Source: Candidatus Bathyarchaeota archaeon (GTDB lineage Archaea > Thermoproteota > Bathyarchaeia > 40CM-2-53-6 > DTDX01). From it: DNA of 64,000 bases. Location: assembly GCA_018396775.1 (NCBI GenBank), contig JAGTRF010000009.1:1-64000 (forward strand), in the 5' to 3' direction. The number at the start of each line of letters is the position of its first letter. The stretch's first letter is position 1. Below are positions 638 to 7,672 of the stretch, piece by piece. Below the pieces are notes generated by a model. That model was given only the letters and a program-made list of their open reading frames with translations. It did not search any database and was not told where the DNA came from. A program made the translations under genes and the position numbers.

Positions 638-1020
638 ATCCCCTTAATAGGAGAAAGGCTTAACTAATGAAGTGAAACACTATACTGCTAAACCTATGCC
701 CATAGTTTAGGCGGATTATTCTTCCATATGAGTTACTATATTTTTAGCATCTATTGCTCTAAAACAAGGGGGCTCTCACATTAGTTCTCTATTAACAGTT
801 TTAATTGTTTTTCTTTCTGTTAAGATTTAGAAATATTTACATTCGGCTGAGAGGGTAACTTATGTTTAATGGTTTAAAAAGCATCGTATATGAAACCTAT
901 TAACTTAAAATATTCTATGTTTTAGCTGCTTCATTAAAAGTTTTTCTCATGACAACCCTAGTTATCGTTAGAATCCAACTAATATAGGATTGAAATTAAT
1001 ACGCTGAAAAATCCTTTCTG
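638..1020. other. Intergenic, no gene recognised
   Basis: These 383 bp lie between the converging PIN pseudogene and the glycosyltransferase gene. No reading frame with a recognisable product, no tRNA fold and no clear repeat was seen on either strand. It probably contains the 3' ends of both transcripts. Confidence 0.4.
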
Positions 1021-3150
1021 TCAGCGCTGTTTCTTCAGTAGGCTGTGAAGCTTTGAAATGCCGTGTTCAGTCTTCTCCCAGTAAAAAGGTTTCCTCATCA
1101 GTTGCAGCAATCCTCTCCAGCATCCAATGCTGATGAGGACCCAGTATAATGGGATCGCTAAGGCTAAGGGTATTGAGGTGTAGTTCTTCTTTAAGATGAA
1201 GGGGCCCATGTGCAATCCGATGTAGACAAGGTTCCCGATCAGTAAATTCGTCGCGCATATGTAATTGAGCGGATAGAAGAATAGGAATTGGAATAAGCCT
1301 GGTACGAGGAGTGTGGAGATCGTGACCGCCCACAGAAGCGGGTTGATGAGTGGAAGATATATGTTTCCTCCGAAGGTCAGTTGAAACAGAAGGAACTTCC
1401 GCCATCCCAGATCTTTTATAAGCTTTCGTGGGTGTCTCATATGAACAAGATATGTTTGAATGTACCCCTTATTCCACCTTGATCTCTGGCGTATCCAACT
1501 TCCAAGCCTGCTGTTTGCTTCTTCATATGTATAGGAGTTGAGCATAGCAGTCTTCTTCCCCCTCCTAGAGATCCTTACACCGAGATCTGCATCTTCAGTC
1601 ATGTTATAAGGATCCCAGCCACCTAACTCCTTTAGTTGTTGTGTTCTGAAATGGTTGCTTGTTCCTCCAAGGGGTATAACGCCATCTACTTGATCTAGGC
1701 CTTCAAGATAGTAATCATACCAGAATGAATACTCAAGAGAGAACCACCTAGTCAATAGATTCTCTTTAGGGTTATAGTAATTCAACCGCGACTGAAGGCA
1801 AATAACATCCATCGATGCTCTAGAGAATGCGATCACCGCTTTTTTCAATTGGTCTGGTTCAGGGTCATCCTCCGCGTCGTAGATTACGCAGTACTCCCCT
1901 CTCGCCCTGAGTAAACCATAGTTGCACGCCCTCGGTTTCGTCCTTATGTCAGCATCAGGTACAATCACGGGGTCAAATATCTTCAGGAACTCCTTGTAAC
2001 GCCATGTCAGCCTATCGATGGAATCCTTGAGTAAAATAACGTCTCGAACTTTTCCTACAAAACTTAGAGGAATCTCCATCGCTCTTCCGGATGCTGTTCT
2101 TAATTTCAGAAACGTTTCAGAAGGGTCTTCGCTTAGGATGACTTCCTCTAGGGTTCCGATTAAGAATCCACTCGGATCTAATATTCTCATTGAAGGCGAT
2201 AAGCTATTTGCATCCATCGCCGTCCTACCAAATAAACCAGGTGGAGCCACTATGACTTCAGGGTTCCCAAAGAGACCTAGCTTTCTAGCCTCTCCAAGTG
2301 TTTCATCATCCTTCTCTTCTATAAGAATCTTGACATCTAACTTCTCTTTAGGGTAATCAAGGTTATAAATGTTCTTTAATACGTGGCGCAGAGCCTTCGC
2401 CTCTCTATAGACAGGAACCAGAATCGTGTAGACAGGCAAATCCTTCTCCCGCAGGTTCTTAACATCCTTACTGGAGACGTTCACAACTCTGCGTGAGCCC
2501 CTGAAACCCTTAAAGGCTATGTAAAATTTCACCGGGTTCACGCAGAAGTATACTATGTTGATAAGAGAAAAGAGAATGATGAATGATAGAGGATAATTTA
2601 AAACGAAGAGCACTGAAAAGAGGATTATGAAGCATAAGATCAGCACCCTCTGCCATGGATACAACACTCTATAAGCGGACTCGTCAGGGCTTCGATAACG
2701 CAGTTCCTTCAAAGCCCTGCGCTCGTGAATTTCACTATAACCTTTATCAATAGCCTCTTCAACTGCTTCAATTGAGGCTACGCAAACTTCCACCCCCGCT
2801 CCGAAGAGGCTTTCCAGTACTTTGAAGAAATCGCTGTTAAATGGATTAGCCGTCGCGATCTTAACTTTTCCTTTGGAGATCGAGAACGGTAGGAGGAGGT
2901 TTTCTTTCAAGAGCAAATAAGGAATTGTTACAGCCAGATCGGTTTTCAACTCCTCTCTTGGAATGTACTGTAATCCCAAAGCATCAGCTAACTCTGTGAA
3001 GAAACCTTCATCAACTTCATACCTATTCTCTCTTAGTTTGAAGATGAAGTTCTGAAAAGTTACCTGCGGGGATTCAAGTTTGGTAGCATCCGCTACACCA
3101 TGCTTCTTCGCAAGCTGTATCAACCATTCTTTAGTGATGGTCAACCCCAC
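1021..3150 (-). CDS. MshEN (GspE_N)-glycosyltransferase family 2 fusion with internal PRC-barrel-like insert
   Basis: This 709-residue membrane protein probably polymerises or transfers sugars across the membrane. Residues about 20-140 resemble the N-terminal MshEN/GspE_N domain. Two membrane segments lie at about 167-207. A GT2 catalytic domain spans about 240-575, with ILVPVYRE, the acidic motif YDAEDDPEPDQL (about 424-435), TED (518-520) and RQRSRW (554-559), the Q/RxxRW motif of processive synthases. Several more membrane helices follow 590. Inside the GT domain, residues about 320-376 (ILDPSGFLIGTLEEVIL ... IPLSFVGKVRDVILL) look like a PRC-barrel inserted between VIVAPPG and VIVPDADIRTKPRACNYG, where ordinary GT2 proteins run straight on. 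In bacterial NfrB a GT2 is joined to an MshEN domain that binds c-di-GMP. The gene is last in a kinase-receiver-GT unit and is clearly GC-richer than most of the window. The GT2 call is firm; the PRC call is moderate. Confidence 0.85.
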   Translation of the reverse strand: MGLTITKEWLIQLAKKHGVADATKLESPQVTFQNFIFKLRENRYEVDEGFFTELADALGLQYIPREELKTDLAVTIPYLLLKENLLLPFSISKGKVKIATANPFNSDFFKVLESLFGAGVEVCVASIEAVEEAIDKGYSEIHERRALKELRYRSPDESAYRVLYPWQRVLILCFIILFSVLFVLNYPLSFIILFSLINIVYFCVNPVKFYIAFKGFRGSRRVVNVSSKDVKNLREKDLPVYTILVPVYREAKALRHVLKNIYNLDYPKEKLDVKILIEEKDDETLGEARKLGLFGNPEVIVAPPGLFGRTAMDANSLSPSMRILDPSGFLIGTLEEVILSEDPSETFLKLRTASGRAMEIPLSFVGKVRDVILLKDSIDRLTWRYKEFLKIFDPVIVPDADIRTKPRACNYGLLRARGEYCVIYDAEDDPEPDQLKKAVIAFSRASMDVICLQSRLNYYNPKENLLTRWFSLEYSFWYDYYLEGLDQVDGVIPLGGTSNHFRTQQLKELGGWDPYNMTEDADLGVRISRRGKKTAMLNSYTYEEANSRLGSWIRQRSRWNKGYIQTYLVHMRHPRKLIKDLGWRKFLLFQLTFGGNIYLPLINPLLWAVTISTLLVPGLFQFLFFYPLNYICATNLLIGNLVYIGLHMGPFILKKNYTSIPLALAIPLYWVLISIGCWRGLLQLMRKPFYWEKTEHGISKLHSLLKKQR

Positions 3151-3218
3151 ATCATTTCAGGGAGAGTTAAATTAGCATCTTTCAACCTTAGTTTGTTAGT
3201 TTATTCATGGATTACGTC

Positions 3219-3674
3219 TCACAACTCCTCCTGTTGTCTAAGTTTCTTCATCCGCGTTTCTATCCACTGTTTGACCTTATCTTCACTCAGCATCTCAATT
3301 TCAGTTTGCTCTCGGAGTTTTTCCTCCACAACCTTTAGAAGCTCTTTAGGGTTTACAGGCTTCATGAGAAATGCGTCCGCTCCCAAGTTTAGGGATTTCA
3401 CAGCGTTTTCTAGGCTTGGGTAACCTGTAAGCATGATCTTCATCATCCTCGGCATAGTTTCATGCATCTTCACAAGTAGCTCGGTCCCCTCCATATCTGG
3501 GAGTTTTATGTCAAGGATGGCTAAGTTGTAAATTTTTTTTCTAGACTTCTCTATGGCCTCCTTGCCGGTTTCTGCGGTTTCAACCTTATAGCCTTTCATC
3601 TCCAGAATAGCCTTTAAACTCTGCAGTATTGCCTCATCATCATCGACGATTAAAATAGTCTTAACTTCCTCCAA
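3219..3674 (-). CDS. Stand-alone receiver (response regulator) protein
   Basis: This 151-residue CheY-like receiver has the acidic pocket D11-D12, phospho-acceptor D55 in LAILDIKLPD, T83 and K105 (LMKP). After the receiver (about 5-120) there is only a charged helical tail, so no DNA-binding or enzymatic output is encoded. It starts 6 nt after the stop of the histidine kinase upstream and is followed 68 nt later by the glycosyltransferase gene, all on the same strand. The phosphorylated receiver is therefore likely to act by protein contact, plausibly on the glycosyltransferase. That target is an inference from the neighbourhood only. Confidence 0.92.
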   Translation of the reverse strand: MEEVKTILIVDDDEAILQSLKAILEMKGYKVETAETGKEAIEKSRKKIYNLAILDIKLPDMEGTELLVKMHETMPRMMKIMLTGYPSLENAVKSLNLGADAFLMKPVNPKELLKVVEEKLREQTEIEMLSEDKVKQWIETRMKKLRQQEEL

Positions 3675-3680
3675 ACATCC

Positions 3681-5489
3681 TCACCCCTCTTTTAACGGCA
3701 ACTCTATCGTGAAAGTTGTTCCAACTCCAACTTTACTCTCAACTTTTATCGCACCTCCATGCGCCTCAACTATTCGTTTGGTAACTGTCAGCCCTAATCC
3801 TTGACCCTTAGCCTTAGTGGTGAAGAAGGGTTTGAAGAGCTTATCCAGTTTCTCCTCCGGTATCCCTTCTCCTGTATCCTGTACGTTTATCAACGCGATA
3901 TCTCCCCTCCTTAAAGTCATTATCGTGATCCTTCCTCCCTTAGGCATAGCTTGGATTGCATTTGTGATCAGGTTTGTGAGCGCTCGTTGAATCATTACGC
4001 CATCAATCTTTAGATTTGGAAACTCATCTTTAAAATTTAATGAGATTTTCACAGTTTCTGGTTTCCTTATGTTTGAAACCGTGTTTTCGATCAGTCGCAT
4101 TAAGTTCGTTGGTTGGAATTGAGGTTGTAAAGGTCTTCCAAAGTCTTGGAGATCTGAAACGATCTTATTCATATACTCAATCTGCTCCTCCATGCTGGAG
4201 CATAACTCCCTGATCTGCTCAGCTTTATCATGGTCAGGGACGTTTGGCAAGATAGATTTTAAATACTCACCAGCTAGATAAACAATGTTCATCATAACTT
4301 GGAGTGGGTTACGGAGATCGTGGCCTACCATCATCGCGACCTCTCCTATAGTTGCAAGTTTTTCATACTCCAGCAGCTTCTTCGTCCGCTCCTCCACCAA
4401 CTCCTCCAGATGTTCGAGATAGTGTCGAATCTGCCGTTGATGTTCTTCCAGTTGTTCCAGCATGCTGTTCACGTTTTCAGTCAGACTTGATATCTCATCC
4501 TTTCCAGTAACAGGTATGCGGACAGCCACATTTTTCGTCCTCCCAATTTCATCCACCATTCTTTCTAACCTAATCACTCTTGAAGTGATCGATCTTTCAA
4601 CAAGAAGTATAATGGCTACGGCGTAAGCTGAAGCGCTGAGGAGCATGGAATAAATAAAGTAAGCAGTGTTCTGCTTAGCCTCGTTGTAAACGTTCCTTGG
4701 TAGGTCAACTCTCAAAATAAGGGCAGGCTCGCCGTATATGTCGTTTATTAACGAGTAGCCAGCTATCGACTTTTCGTTCAAAGGTTTGATGAAGATCTCG
4801 CTCCGATTCGTTAACAGGAATGTGGTTGCTGTTTGAAAATCCGAAGGAAGTTTTGAATCATCGACTTGAAAAATATTGATTAAGAGATGCGTTGTTTGGC
4901 TTAGACGCGACACCTCATCCGAGTTAAGATATCTTCCCATAATCAAAGTTCCGCGAATCGGTCCCGTATATCTGCTGGTCAGGATCGGAGCTGAAGTTAC
5001 GATTAATGGGCCTTCAGGAAGGATGAGGATCCCTGCTACTGCGTTTCGCTCATTAGAGTGATGTAAGAGGGGGCTATTCGGATTGATATGCTCCAACATA
5101 CTTGGAGGTATCTGCGTTTCGCATCCTTTCCTTAAATCGAATCCTCTCTGAAACACTATTTGACCATCCGTGTTGACGAACAACATTAAATTCAACCTCA
5201 GGTTGAGGAAAGTCTCGTCGACAAGGTTTGTTTTGACATACTTCTCGTTTCTATCAATCATAAACGCGTAAGTGTCATCCCAAGACGCGTAGTCACGAGT
5301 CATAGAAAGCATTTTTTCCAACTCATCTGAAAAAGCGTTGAGAGCTCGTCTAACATTTTGCCTCGTGTCATCCTCCTCTATCTTAACAGCTGTTCTAACC
5401 ATGGCCACTTGCGCAAATCCATATAGTATGATAATTAACGCAAGGGTGGTTAAAGACATGATCAGCATGATCTTTGTTCTAAGCTTCAT
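3681..5489 (-). CDS. Membrane sensor histidine kinase with CHASE4-type sensor, HAMP, HisKA and HATPase
   Basis: This 602-residue kinase is the first gene of a kinase-receiver-glycosyltransferase unit. The N-terminal helix at about 8-30 and a second at about 276-297 bracket an extracellular region (about 45-270) resembling CHASE4, with DYASWDDTY near residue 70. HAMP follows (about 298-350), then a coiled stretch, then HisKA with the phospho-acceptor H390 in VGHDLRNPLQ. The ATPase domain has N510 (NLITNAIQAM), the G1 box DTGEGIP (538-544) and the G2 box GQGLGL (562-567). All catalytic motifs are intact, so it should autophosphorylate and pass phosphate to D55 of the next protein. The ligand is unknown. 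Codon use is GC-richer than that of the core genes. Confidence 0.93.
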   Translation of the reverse strand: MKLRTKIMLIMSLTTLALIIILYGFAQVAMVRTAVKIEEDDTRQNVRRALNAFSDELEKMLSMTRDYASWDDTYAFMIDRNEKYVKTNLVDETFLNLRLNLMLFVNTDGQIVFQRGFDLRKGCETQIPPSMLEHINPNSPLLHHSNERNAVAGILILPEGPLIVTSAPILTSRYTGPIRGTLIMGRYLNSDEVSRLSQTTHLLINIFQVDDSKLPSDFQTATTFLLTNRSEIFIKPLNEKSIAGYSLINDIYGEPALILRVDLPRNVYNEAKQNTAYFIYSMLLSASAYAVAIILLVERSITSRVIRLERMVDEIGRTKNVAVRIPVTGKDEISSLTENVNSMLEQLEEHQRQIRHYLEHLEELVEERTKKLLEYEKLATIGEVAMMVGHDLRNPLQVMMNIVYLAGEYLKSILPNVPDHDKAEQIRELCSSMEEQIEYMNKIVSDLQDFGRPLQPQFQPTNLMRLIENTVSNIRKPETVKISLNFKDEFPNLKIDGVMIQRALTNLITNAIQAMPKGGRITIMTLRRGDIALINVQDTGEGIPEEKLDKLFKPFFTTKAKGQGLGLTVTKRIVEAHGGAIKVESKVGVGTTFTIELPLKEG

Positions 5490-5620
5490 ATACTGAAAAT
5501 CTCCTAATAAATAGAACTATTTAATTAAATTAGCAAGTTTAACTATTAATTATTAATTTATAAATTTATATTTTATAATTTTGCAATTTTTAATTTTGAT
5601 AATTGATATTTAATTAATAC

Positions 5621-6042
5621 TTACATTTTAATATATTTATCTGGTAAACTATGCGTTAACTCTTTCACTTTTGTATATTCTTTGTTATAGCTTACAAGCT
5701 TTATATTCTCGATTATTCCAACAGCTGCATAAAGGCTATCAAAATATGTTAACCCTTCATATTTCTTCCTAAGCTTAAAAGCTTCACGATGATACTCAGG
5801 TTTTATTGGAAAAGTAATTATTCTTCTGTATTTAAAGAAGTTGCTAAGAGCATCATAGAAAGCCGTAACTTCCTTAACGATTATTTCTCCAGATTTTAGG
5901 AGTAGATTAAGCTCTATAAGTGAATATGGAGATAACTTCACTTCTCCGAAAGATTTATCAAAAACTTTTTTACCTCAGCGTGATGCTTATCTTCAACCGA
6001 TATAAGAGCTAATAGAATATCTGTCTCTATAAGTATGGGCAG
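5621..6042 (-). pseudogene. Frameshifted PIN-domain toxin (VapC family) lacking a normal start
   Basis: Two frames together give a PIN protein. The 5' part reads LPILIETDILLALISVEDKH and onward from about 6042. The 3' part begins at GTG 5941 (VKLSPYSLIELNLLLKSG) and runs to the stop at 5621. The two frames differ by one base and the 5' frame stops (TGA) around 5940, so one nucleotide has been gained or two lost there. The 5' frame has only a CTG (6042-6040) as a possible start, just after an AGGAGG sequence. The last PIN acidic position is Asn (SYNKEY) instead of Asp. The gene follows an AbrB-type antitoxin that also carries a stop, so the whole pair looks dead. Confidence 0.75.
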
Positions 6043-6473: not shown

Positions 6474-6914
6474 TTAACTGTTGTTAATGTTTATATTATA
6501 AAGTTCAGAAAGAAGTTTAACGCAAGCTTCATAATGTTTTTTAGCTATTTCATAAGCTTTAGGCGCATAATCTTTAAAGTAGTTTACGTCTAAACCTTTT
6601 TCATAGCCATAGCTGGCTAATCCTCTAAGCTCCGCAAGCTCAGAAATGTTGCTAGCTAATTCATTAAGCATGGATAAAAACCATATTGGAACATTTTTCT
6701 TTTTAGAAATTTGTTTAAAAACGAAGCTTATATCATGTGCTTTTGGATATTCTACTCCAAACGCTATTAAAACAGCTTTAGAAGCATGCTCAACAACCAT
6801 TTGCGAAGAATAAACAACGTCATCCCATCTTTCCTCTTCTAAAGCTCTTAAAGCGTTCGTCAACCATCTGCTGCTTCTTTTTAAAGCTGATTTAGCAATT
6901 TCAATGTTCGTCAT
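6474..6914 (-). CDS. HEPN-domain protein (toxin of a HEPN/MNT pair)
   Basis: Starting at ATG 6914 this is a 146-residue all-helical protein of the HEPN family (SSQMVVEHASKAVLIAFGVE ... LRGLASYGYEKG). HEPN proteins in this arrangement are often RNases silenced by a partner nucleotidyltransferase. The frame is open further upstream to 6959, but ATG 6914 overlaps the TGA of the nucleotidyltransferase gene by one base (TGATG), the typical coupled start, so I prefer it. The usual RxxxxH catalytic motif is not clear: the equivalent stretch is RGLASYG, without the histidine. It may be a non-catalytic or divergent member. Confidence 0.78.
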   Translation of the reverse strand: MTNIEIAKSALKRSSRWLTNALRALEEERWDDVVYSSQMVVEHASKAVLIAFGVEYPKAHDISFVFKQISKKKNVPIWFLSMLNELASNISELAELRGLASYGYEKGLDVNYFKDYAPKAYEIAKKHYEACVKLLSELYNININNS

Positions 6915-7672
6915 CAAAATTCTATAATCTCTCCTGGTTTTATATCTTTCAAAACCCAATAAGACTTTCGATTTGAAAAAGTAACTCTTATAGAACCCAT
7001 TTCTTCCAGCTTTCTTCTTAAGGATTGAAGTTGTTGCGTTAAAAAATTGTTTTTATCGTATAAAATTATTCCATCTATTATCGCGTCTAAATATATTTTA
7101 TTAAATTTTTTAGCTTCCTCTATGCTTAATTCATAATTTTGAATTATCGGCCAATAACCTGCTTTTACAGCTTCTAAATATTCTAAGCTTTCTTCAAGCT
7201 CTTCTTTAGCTTTCCTAAGCTCTTTAATTCTTTCCCAAGCAGGTTTATCATTCCATCCTTCAGCTACTACAAGAATATCTATATCGCTATTTTTATTCCA
7301 GTCTCCTCTAGCTATAGAACCGAAAAGCATTACGCTTATTAACCTATCTCCTAAAATCTTACTCAGTAGTTCGCAATATTTTTTAATTACAGGCGCAAAA
7401 TGTATATGCGGTATTCTCTCTATATTTTCAACCTTAAACATTGAATAATGCAAAACTTTATTCAATTCTTCAAATATTTTAGCCGCTTCAAAACCTCTTT
7501 GAGTTAATTCATAATTTTTACTGCTATCCTCTATAAGCTTTAAATGCTTAAGCTTTTTCAGCTTAATTGAAAGTGTTCTAGGATTTTTAACAATAGATTT
7601 CAAGTCTTTAAATCTAGCAGCTCCTTTCTTTCTTAGCAAAACCAAAATCTCAAAAGAAGCTTCATCAATCAT
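6914..7672 (-). CDS. Winged-helix + MNT nucleotidyltransferase fusion (antitoxin of HEPN/MNT pair)
   Basis: This 252-residue protein has an N-terminal winged helix (about 1-75: LRKKGAARFKDLKSIVKNPR and LIEDSSKNYELTQRG) and then a minimal nucleotidyltransferase domain with GSIARGDWNKNSDIDILV at 118-135. The catalytic GS and DxD residues are kept. Minimal nucleotidyltransferases of this kind can AMPylate and silence their HEPN partner, which is encoded next with a one-base overlap. The winged helix suggests that the same protein also represses the operon. Upstream is an AT-rich promoter region. The domain calls are solid; the antitoxin role is inferred from context. Confidence 0.85.
   Translation of the reverse strand: MIDEASFEILVLLRKKGAARFKDLKSIVKNPRTLSIKLKKLKHLKLIEDSSKNYELTQRGFEAAKIFEELNKVLHYSMFKVENIERIPHIHFAPVIKKYCELLSKILGDRLISVMLFGSIARGDWNKNSDIDILVVAEGWNDKPAWERIKELRKAKEELEESLEYLEAVKAGYWPIIQNYELSIEEAKKFNKIYLDAIIDGIILYDKNNFLTQQLQSLRRKLEEMGSIRVTFSNRKSYWVLKDIKPGEIIEF

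Follow-up and report, generated by a model that had tools for sequence, protein, structure and literature searches.

A kinase, a receiver-only response regulator, and an MshEN-domain glycosyltransferase encoded together in archaea

The window, 64 kb at the left end of contig C9 from a Candidatus Bathyarchaeota archaeon, carries a cassette of three minus-strand open reading frames (ORFs). They encode a CHASE4 histidine kinase (HK), a receiver-only response regulator (RR), and a family GT2 glycosyltransferase (GT) with an N-terminal MshEN-fold domain (MshEN-GT2). The source genome, G000, is 1.33 Mb and 98.5% complete. These genes probably form a self-contained route for post-translational control of surface-glycan synthesis that runs from kinase to receiver to MshEN domain to synthase, with the receiver acting directly on the MshEN domain. 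A first-pass annotation of the DNA had already proposed post-translational control, and it is still the best reading: the genome has neither a DNA-binding regulator nor a GGDEF protein, the receiver–GT association is conserved, and the motif for binding cyclic di-GMP (c-di-GMP) has been lost. We consider it an even call whether a broader proposal also holds, namely that a phosphorylated single-domain receiver replaced c-di-GMP as the MshEN ligand. The cassette would then represent a conserved archaeal module that is mobile as a unit, uses interchangeable sensors, and provides the first defined direct target of the archaeal receiver-only class outside chemotaxis.

The cassette and its proteins

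An ORF check placed all three genes on one strand where they had been annotated, with 6 nucleotides (nt) between the kinase stop codon and the TTG start of the receiver gene and 68 nt between the receiver stop codon and the GTG start of the GT gene. Chance is excluded as the source of this arrangement because the three genes turn up as a set again in relatives as well as in another phylum.

The kinase matches CHASE4, HAMP, HisKA, and HATPase_c (E 7.9e-30) in Pfam and has the H-box histidine and complete ATPase domain expected of a two-component kinase. Hydropathy places transmembrane segments at amino acids (aa) ~3–35 and ~276–301, on either side of CHASE4. The receiver was described at the outset as having no output domain, and Response_reg (E 1e-28) is indeed the sole domain above the Pfam cut-off, as in CheY-like proteins. 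Its two-component signature residues (D11, D12, D55, T83, and K105) are invariant in an alignment of 18 relatives.

Whole-genome searches of G000 found receiver domains only in the window cassette and on contig C23, and HATPase domains only in the two cassette kinases (window and C23) and topoisomerase VI-B. The same searches found no DNA-binding response regulator, in agreement with the proposal of a kinase–receiver pair operating without one, and such a regulator is ruled out as the true kinase partner. Contig C23 (3.4 kb; L032) matches the chromosomal cassette of a relative, G418, at 99.91% identity over 3368 bp, and contig C30 of G418 (3.6 kb; L090) is 99.9–100% identical to the window cassette. 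C23 was rejected as a second cassette copy, as this reciprocal near-identity fits cross-binning of small contigs; therefore, G000 probably holds one cassette. This should serve as a warning for copy-number claims made from metagenome-assembled genomes (MAGs). The window cassette is probably the only two-component system of G000, and its kinase and receiver are partners by default because they are the only pair.

The GT matches Glyco_trans_2_3 (E 3e-19) and MshEN (E 2.7e-10 at aa 62–140) in Pfam. Its AlphaFold2 model has a predicted local distance difference test (pLDDT) score of 82, with BcsA and hyaluronan synthase as the nearest folds. Like NfrB of Escherichia coli, it is a membrane GT2 with the DxD/TED/QxxRW motif set, the first motif reading DAED. 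Among aligned MshEN-GT2s all three motifs are invariant or nearly so, and TED and QxxRW are fully invariant. Sequence and model together suggest a processive polymer synthase of the BcsA/hyaluronan synthase kind. A role as a lipid-linked sugar transferase akin to dolichyl-phosphate mannose synthase, in a system that tunes protein or lipid glycosylation, is quite improbable. The Pyrobaculum mannosyltransferase PcManGT does occur among the fold (6yv7) and profile matches, but the conserved motifs, like the top matches by fold and by profile, belong with the processive enzymes. A PRC-barrel-like insert in the catalytic domain occurs only in GTs from three families of the window's order; PRC scores above the Pfam cut-off in the homologous inserts at L055:8504-8791 and L056:8236-8523 and does not score in the window.

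The regulatory domain has an MshEN fold on the same chain as the GT, as Pfam and a fold search agree. In a model of aa 1–167 (pLDDT 86), the best 20 matches in the PDB are all MshEN/GSPII domains. The N-terminal position given by the first-pass annotation holds; the boundary is wider than the Pfam match, with the fold spanning aa 1 to ~142. An intact tandem 24-residue c-di-GMP motif was not found in this domain. The core of the tandem RLG...Q motif scores 7/14, within the range of shuffled sequences, where a canonical control scores 12/14. The NCBIfam model of the motif, NF053729, matched the control and not the window GT. Read in register, the domain has substitutions at key positions (R9 to W, G11 to I, Q32 to F, R38 to K, and G40 to R).

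A search of G000 for GGDEF proteins, as had been proposed, found none, and so no diguanylate cyclase of the kind that serves NfrB. GGDEF is also absent from all GT–receiver genomes tested and from 20 of the 21 relatives searched, the sole match being in the genome that contains locus L048. With the motif lost, NF053729 unmatched, and no GGDEF in G000, control of the window GT by c-di-GMP was rejected. There is a slim chance that a nucleotide of some type (c-di-GMP, cyclic di-AMP, or another) is still a ligand of the MshEN-like domain, with the kinase and receiver acting on the GT only indirectly. The fold itself would allow this, and a motif need not be perfect to bind c-di-GMP (as discussed in PMC5013675). 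Against it, in addition to the replaced residues and the missing GGDEF genes, PilF GSPII-A, the closest structural match, is a non-binder, and the MshEN domain of Vibrio cholerae does not bind cyclic di-AMP.

The L048 locus offers an informative counterpart. It is labeled as a Halobacteria MAG, and archaeal PCNA is encoded on its contig, as is PriL, a primase subunit. Just upstream of PriL lies a REC-GGDEF-HD protein (L048:4070-5602) with an intact GGDEF and an HD-GYP-like motif, followed after 140 nt by an MshEN-GT2 whose c-di-GMP motif is intact (L048:5743-7860). A single archaeal GGDEF domain was known in a 2018 census (PMC5847659). As in the window, a response regulator gene sits directly upstream of an archaeal MshEN-GT2, but the L048 pair keeps both GGDEF and the c-di-GMP motif while the window version has lost both. 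The features covary: GGDEF with the motif in L048 versus a bare receiver without the motif in the window type.

Conservation of the receiver–glycosyltransferase association

Relatives of the GT come mostly from Bathyarchaeota MAGs. Among 38 genomes surveyed from the window's order, an MshEN domain occurs in 8. A profile of GT-linked receivers scores at least 259 bits in every one of these, and the best score in the other 30 genomes is 200 bits (Fisher p ~2e-8, not corrected for relatedness). In 8/8 MshEN genomes, the receiver adjoins the GT or sits one gene away. The arrangement is HK-RR-GT in G000, G213, and G418, GT-HK-RR in G416 and G417, and convergent in G154, G420, and G421. Because the gene orders differ, the linkage is more than mere operon inertia. 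The kinase core is kept across the order while the sensors vary, from CHASE4-HAMP and CHASE4-HAMP-PAS to PAS-PAS without a membrane anchor. Conserved co-occurrence, suggested as a check on the first annotation, was thus borne out and extends beyond one order. The further expectation of a conserved gene order stands for the association of the genes and fails for their order and for the kinase sensor.

The second setting is the Methanomicrobia, where MshEN matches across 232 genomes pointed to HK-RR-GT operons (G628, G631, G632, G638, G639, and G560) and a GT-HK-RR operon (G634). A Methanoregula MAG (G430) has RR-GT. The cassette kinases here join HisKA and HATPase domains to a REC-like region at the N terminus. 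G628 appears to be Methanospirillum hungatei JF1. According to the genome paper on that strain, its kinases are in general not genetically linked, so the linkage in this cassette is notable. The methanomicrobial MshEN-GT2s (L112:1439-3985, L115:4813-7350, and their kin) also have a C-terminal extension of ~200 aa without a Pfam match.

In the receiver tree, 16/18 GT-linked receivers, with both phyla represented, form a single group apart from the Bathyarchaeial receiver-only paralogs; the placement of Methanoregula is unresolved. The receiver–GT adjacency at L043 was dropped as a case of the same association, as its receiver groups with the non-GT paralogs. On the GT tree, the label "receiver beside GT" needs two changes. 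This is consistent with an old receiver–GT association that family f6 and its kin, a Bathyarchaeial lineage in which the GT usually stands alone, may have lost. An actinobacterial relative (L047) was set aside because it has the GT core only, with a short N terminus, no recognizable MshEN, and no adjoining receiver. This gene (L047:5848-7479), from a MAG with a G+C of 0.70, is 53% identical in the GT core and adjoins another GT2.

The conservation also bears on an unlikely but still noteworthy account in which the receiver serves its kinase as a phosphate sink or in feedback, or signals to some other target, and the GT is co-transcribed and mobilized with the pair but untouched by it. Archaeal response regulators are most often receiver-only proteins, and in relatives, receivers with a similar tail adjoin kinases without any GT. 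This account sits poorly with the mostly separate lineage of the GT-linked receivers and with their perfect co-occurrence with the GT in the order across three arrangements. It also has to contend with five methanogen genomes (G628, G632, G560, G639, and G638), each with 84–122 receiver candidates, in which the sole receiver at E<1e-20 is the neighbor of the GT. G000, moreover, has no other two-component component.

Proposed control of the synthase and its relation to known systems

In the pathway that we favor, the CHASE4 kinase would sense an extracellular or membrane cue and, judging from its conserved motif, autophosphorylate on H390. The phosphoryl group would then move to D55 of the receiver-only protein. 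Next, the phosphorylation-dependent face of the receiver and its conserved C-terminal helix would bind the N-terminal MshEN-fold domain of the GT, which is the main unproven step. Docking may open or close the BcsA/hyaluronan synthase–like catalytic and channel unit through a conserved linker, H..ALkeL.yR.PDESAYRVLYPWQ, that runs into the first membrane helix. The receiver would thereby fill the role that c-di-GMP has in NfrB. A surface signal, as first annotated, suits the CHASE4 kinases found here and does not carry over to related cassettes with cytosolic PAS or REC-like kinases.

Two features are candidates for the coupling surfaces. The C-terminal tail of the receiver is common to GT-linked receivers of two phyla and may be an effector-binding helix. 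In the linker, W166 is invariant in 17/17 receiver-linked GTs and is mostly N in unlinked GTs, a pattern that marks it as a candidate coupling residue.

Several observations weigh against receiver control of the synthase through the MshEN domain. Direct contact between the two is something that we infer. A diverged form of the receiver tail also occurs in receiver-only paralogs that do not adjoin a GT, so the tail is not proof of MshEN contact. The methanomicrobial GTs score weakly for MshEN (17.7–33.1 bits). The joint receiver group has moderate support (86/79) and leaves out two of the GT-linked receivers (L042 and L043). Finally, the MshEN-GT2s of family f6 of the class have the same core and no adjoining receiver, indicating that a receiver is not universally required.

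The proposed system combines parts that are known separately. NfrB of E. coli is a c-di-GMP-activated MshEN-GT2 (PMC8669469) and, like the window GT, joins a membrane-helix GT2 with TED and QxxRW to an MshEN-fold regulatory domain on one chain. As a parallel drawn in the first-pass annotation, it is apt for an MshEN-GT2 switched by c-di-GMP, but its MshEN domain is C-terminal, the reverse of the window GT. Its motif is also intact, and it is fed by the diguanylate cyclase DgcJ and works with NfrA; in contrast, the window GT has an N-terminal domain, a lost motif, no GGDEF, and an adjoining kinase–receiver pair.

The coupling of an archaeal receiver to a cellulose synthase–like GT2 also has a precedent, in the fusions of REC to BcsA-like GT2s in Methanobacteriaceae, such as MTH_548 (Galperin et al. 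2018, PMC5847659). The earlier statement that no archaeal system of this layout had been described misses these proteins. They follow the same logic in one chain, with no MshEN reported, whereas the window receiver and GT are on separate ORFs 68 nt apart and the MshEN domain probably serves as the dock. The literature yielded no functional test of these fusions.

A precedent for the docking step is found in Xanthomonas citri, where PilB-N, an MshEN-fold domain without the c-di-GMP motif, docks the small regulator PilZ through a conserved C-terminal motif of PilZ (PMC8389850; 7lkm). In the GT-linked receivers, too, the C-terminal tail is conserved. The differences are that the output is a pilus ATPase and that the regulator is PilZ, not a phosphorylated receiver. 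Compared with receiver-only regulators of the CheY/Spo0F type, the window protein has the same single domain and all phosphotransfer residues but sits in a conserved non-chemotaxis neighborhood. Receiver-only proteins make up ~40% of archaeal response regulators, and most have no known target or conserved neighborhood (PMC5847659).

Archaeal REC-GT2 coupling and MshEN-GT2s were thus already known, and a separate receiver with a motif-less MshEN-GT2 is the new variation. Searches of open-licence papers turned up no such combination conserved across two archaeal phyla. The module gives one family of archaeal receiver-only proteins a specific, testable partner and offers a route for archaea to control surface polymers without c-di-GMP. 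It also points to a way in which a domain that senses nucleotides can come to respond to a protein instead. If G628 is the cultured type strain M. hungatei JF1, protein work is not tied to uncultured organisms.

Origin of the cassette and neighboring genes

The cassette coincides with a G+C-rich island that was absent from the first-pass annotation: G+C is 0.42–0.46 over positions 1001–5500 versus ~0.31 in the rest of the window. Feature coordinates are collected in Table 1.

Table 1. Features of the cassette, in window coordinates
Feature	Position	Strand	Details and basis
Whole cassette, G+C-rich island	1012..5498	.	G+C; 89% DNA homology with the G418 copy over exactly this interval
Putative MshEN-GT2 membrane glycan synthase	1021..3150	-	709 aa, GTG start; ORF, Pfam, AlphaFold2
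GT-A catalytic domain (aa 236-575)	1426..2445	-	DAED (425-428), TED (518-520), QxxRW (555-559)
Insert of ~75 aa within GT-A domain (aa ~300-378), PRC-barrel-like	2017..2253	-	Strands in model
MshEN-fold N-terminal domain (aa 1-142), without c-di-GMP motif	2725..3150	-	Pfam, motif tests, fold search
Receiver-only response regulator	3219..3674	-	151 aa, TTG start; ORF, Pfam
Receiver C-terminal tail (aa 120-147)	3234..3317	-	Consensus SEEKVxEWxETRLxKL; alignment
Codon of D55, phospho-acceptor aspartate	3510..3512	-	Alignment of 18 relatives
Sensor histidine kinase	3681..5489	-	602 aa; ORF, Pfam, hydropathy
Codon of H390, phospho-acceptor histidine	4320..4322	-	Motif VGHDLRNP; invariant in 4 aligned HKs
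CHASE4 sensor domain, extracytoplasmic (HK aa 52-202)	4884..5336	-	Pfam, E 1.6e-42

The cassette appears to be a recent arrival. G035, a 100% complete genome of the same genus, lacks both the GT and the receiver, although its arginyl-tRNA synthetase is 80% identical to that of the window. In G418 the synthetase is 56% identical, and despite this distance, the GT is 90% identical to the window GT. The best explanation of these comparisons is that the cassette was acquired horizontally, in its entirety, from a relative resembling G418. Less probably, it could have entered the contig through a chimeric assembly. Searches around the cassette for RNA families, tRNA genes, and flanking repeats, as possible marks of a mobile element, found none. 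Nearby, a PIN-domain gene lies at window positions 5621-5941, with remnants at the contig start. Beyond it, overlapping HEPN and nucleotidyltransferase (MNT) genes at 6474-7672 have the layout of an MNT-HEPN toxin–antitoxin pair.

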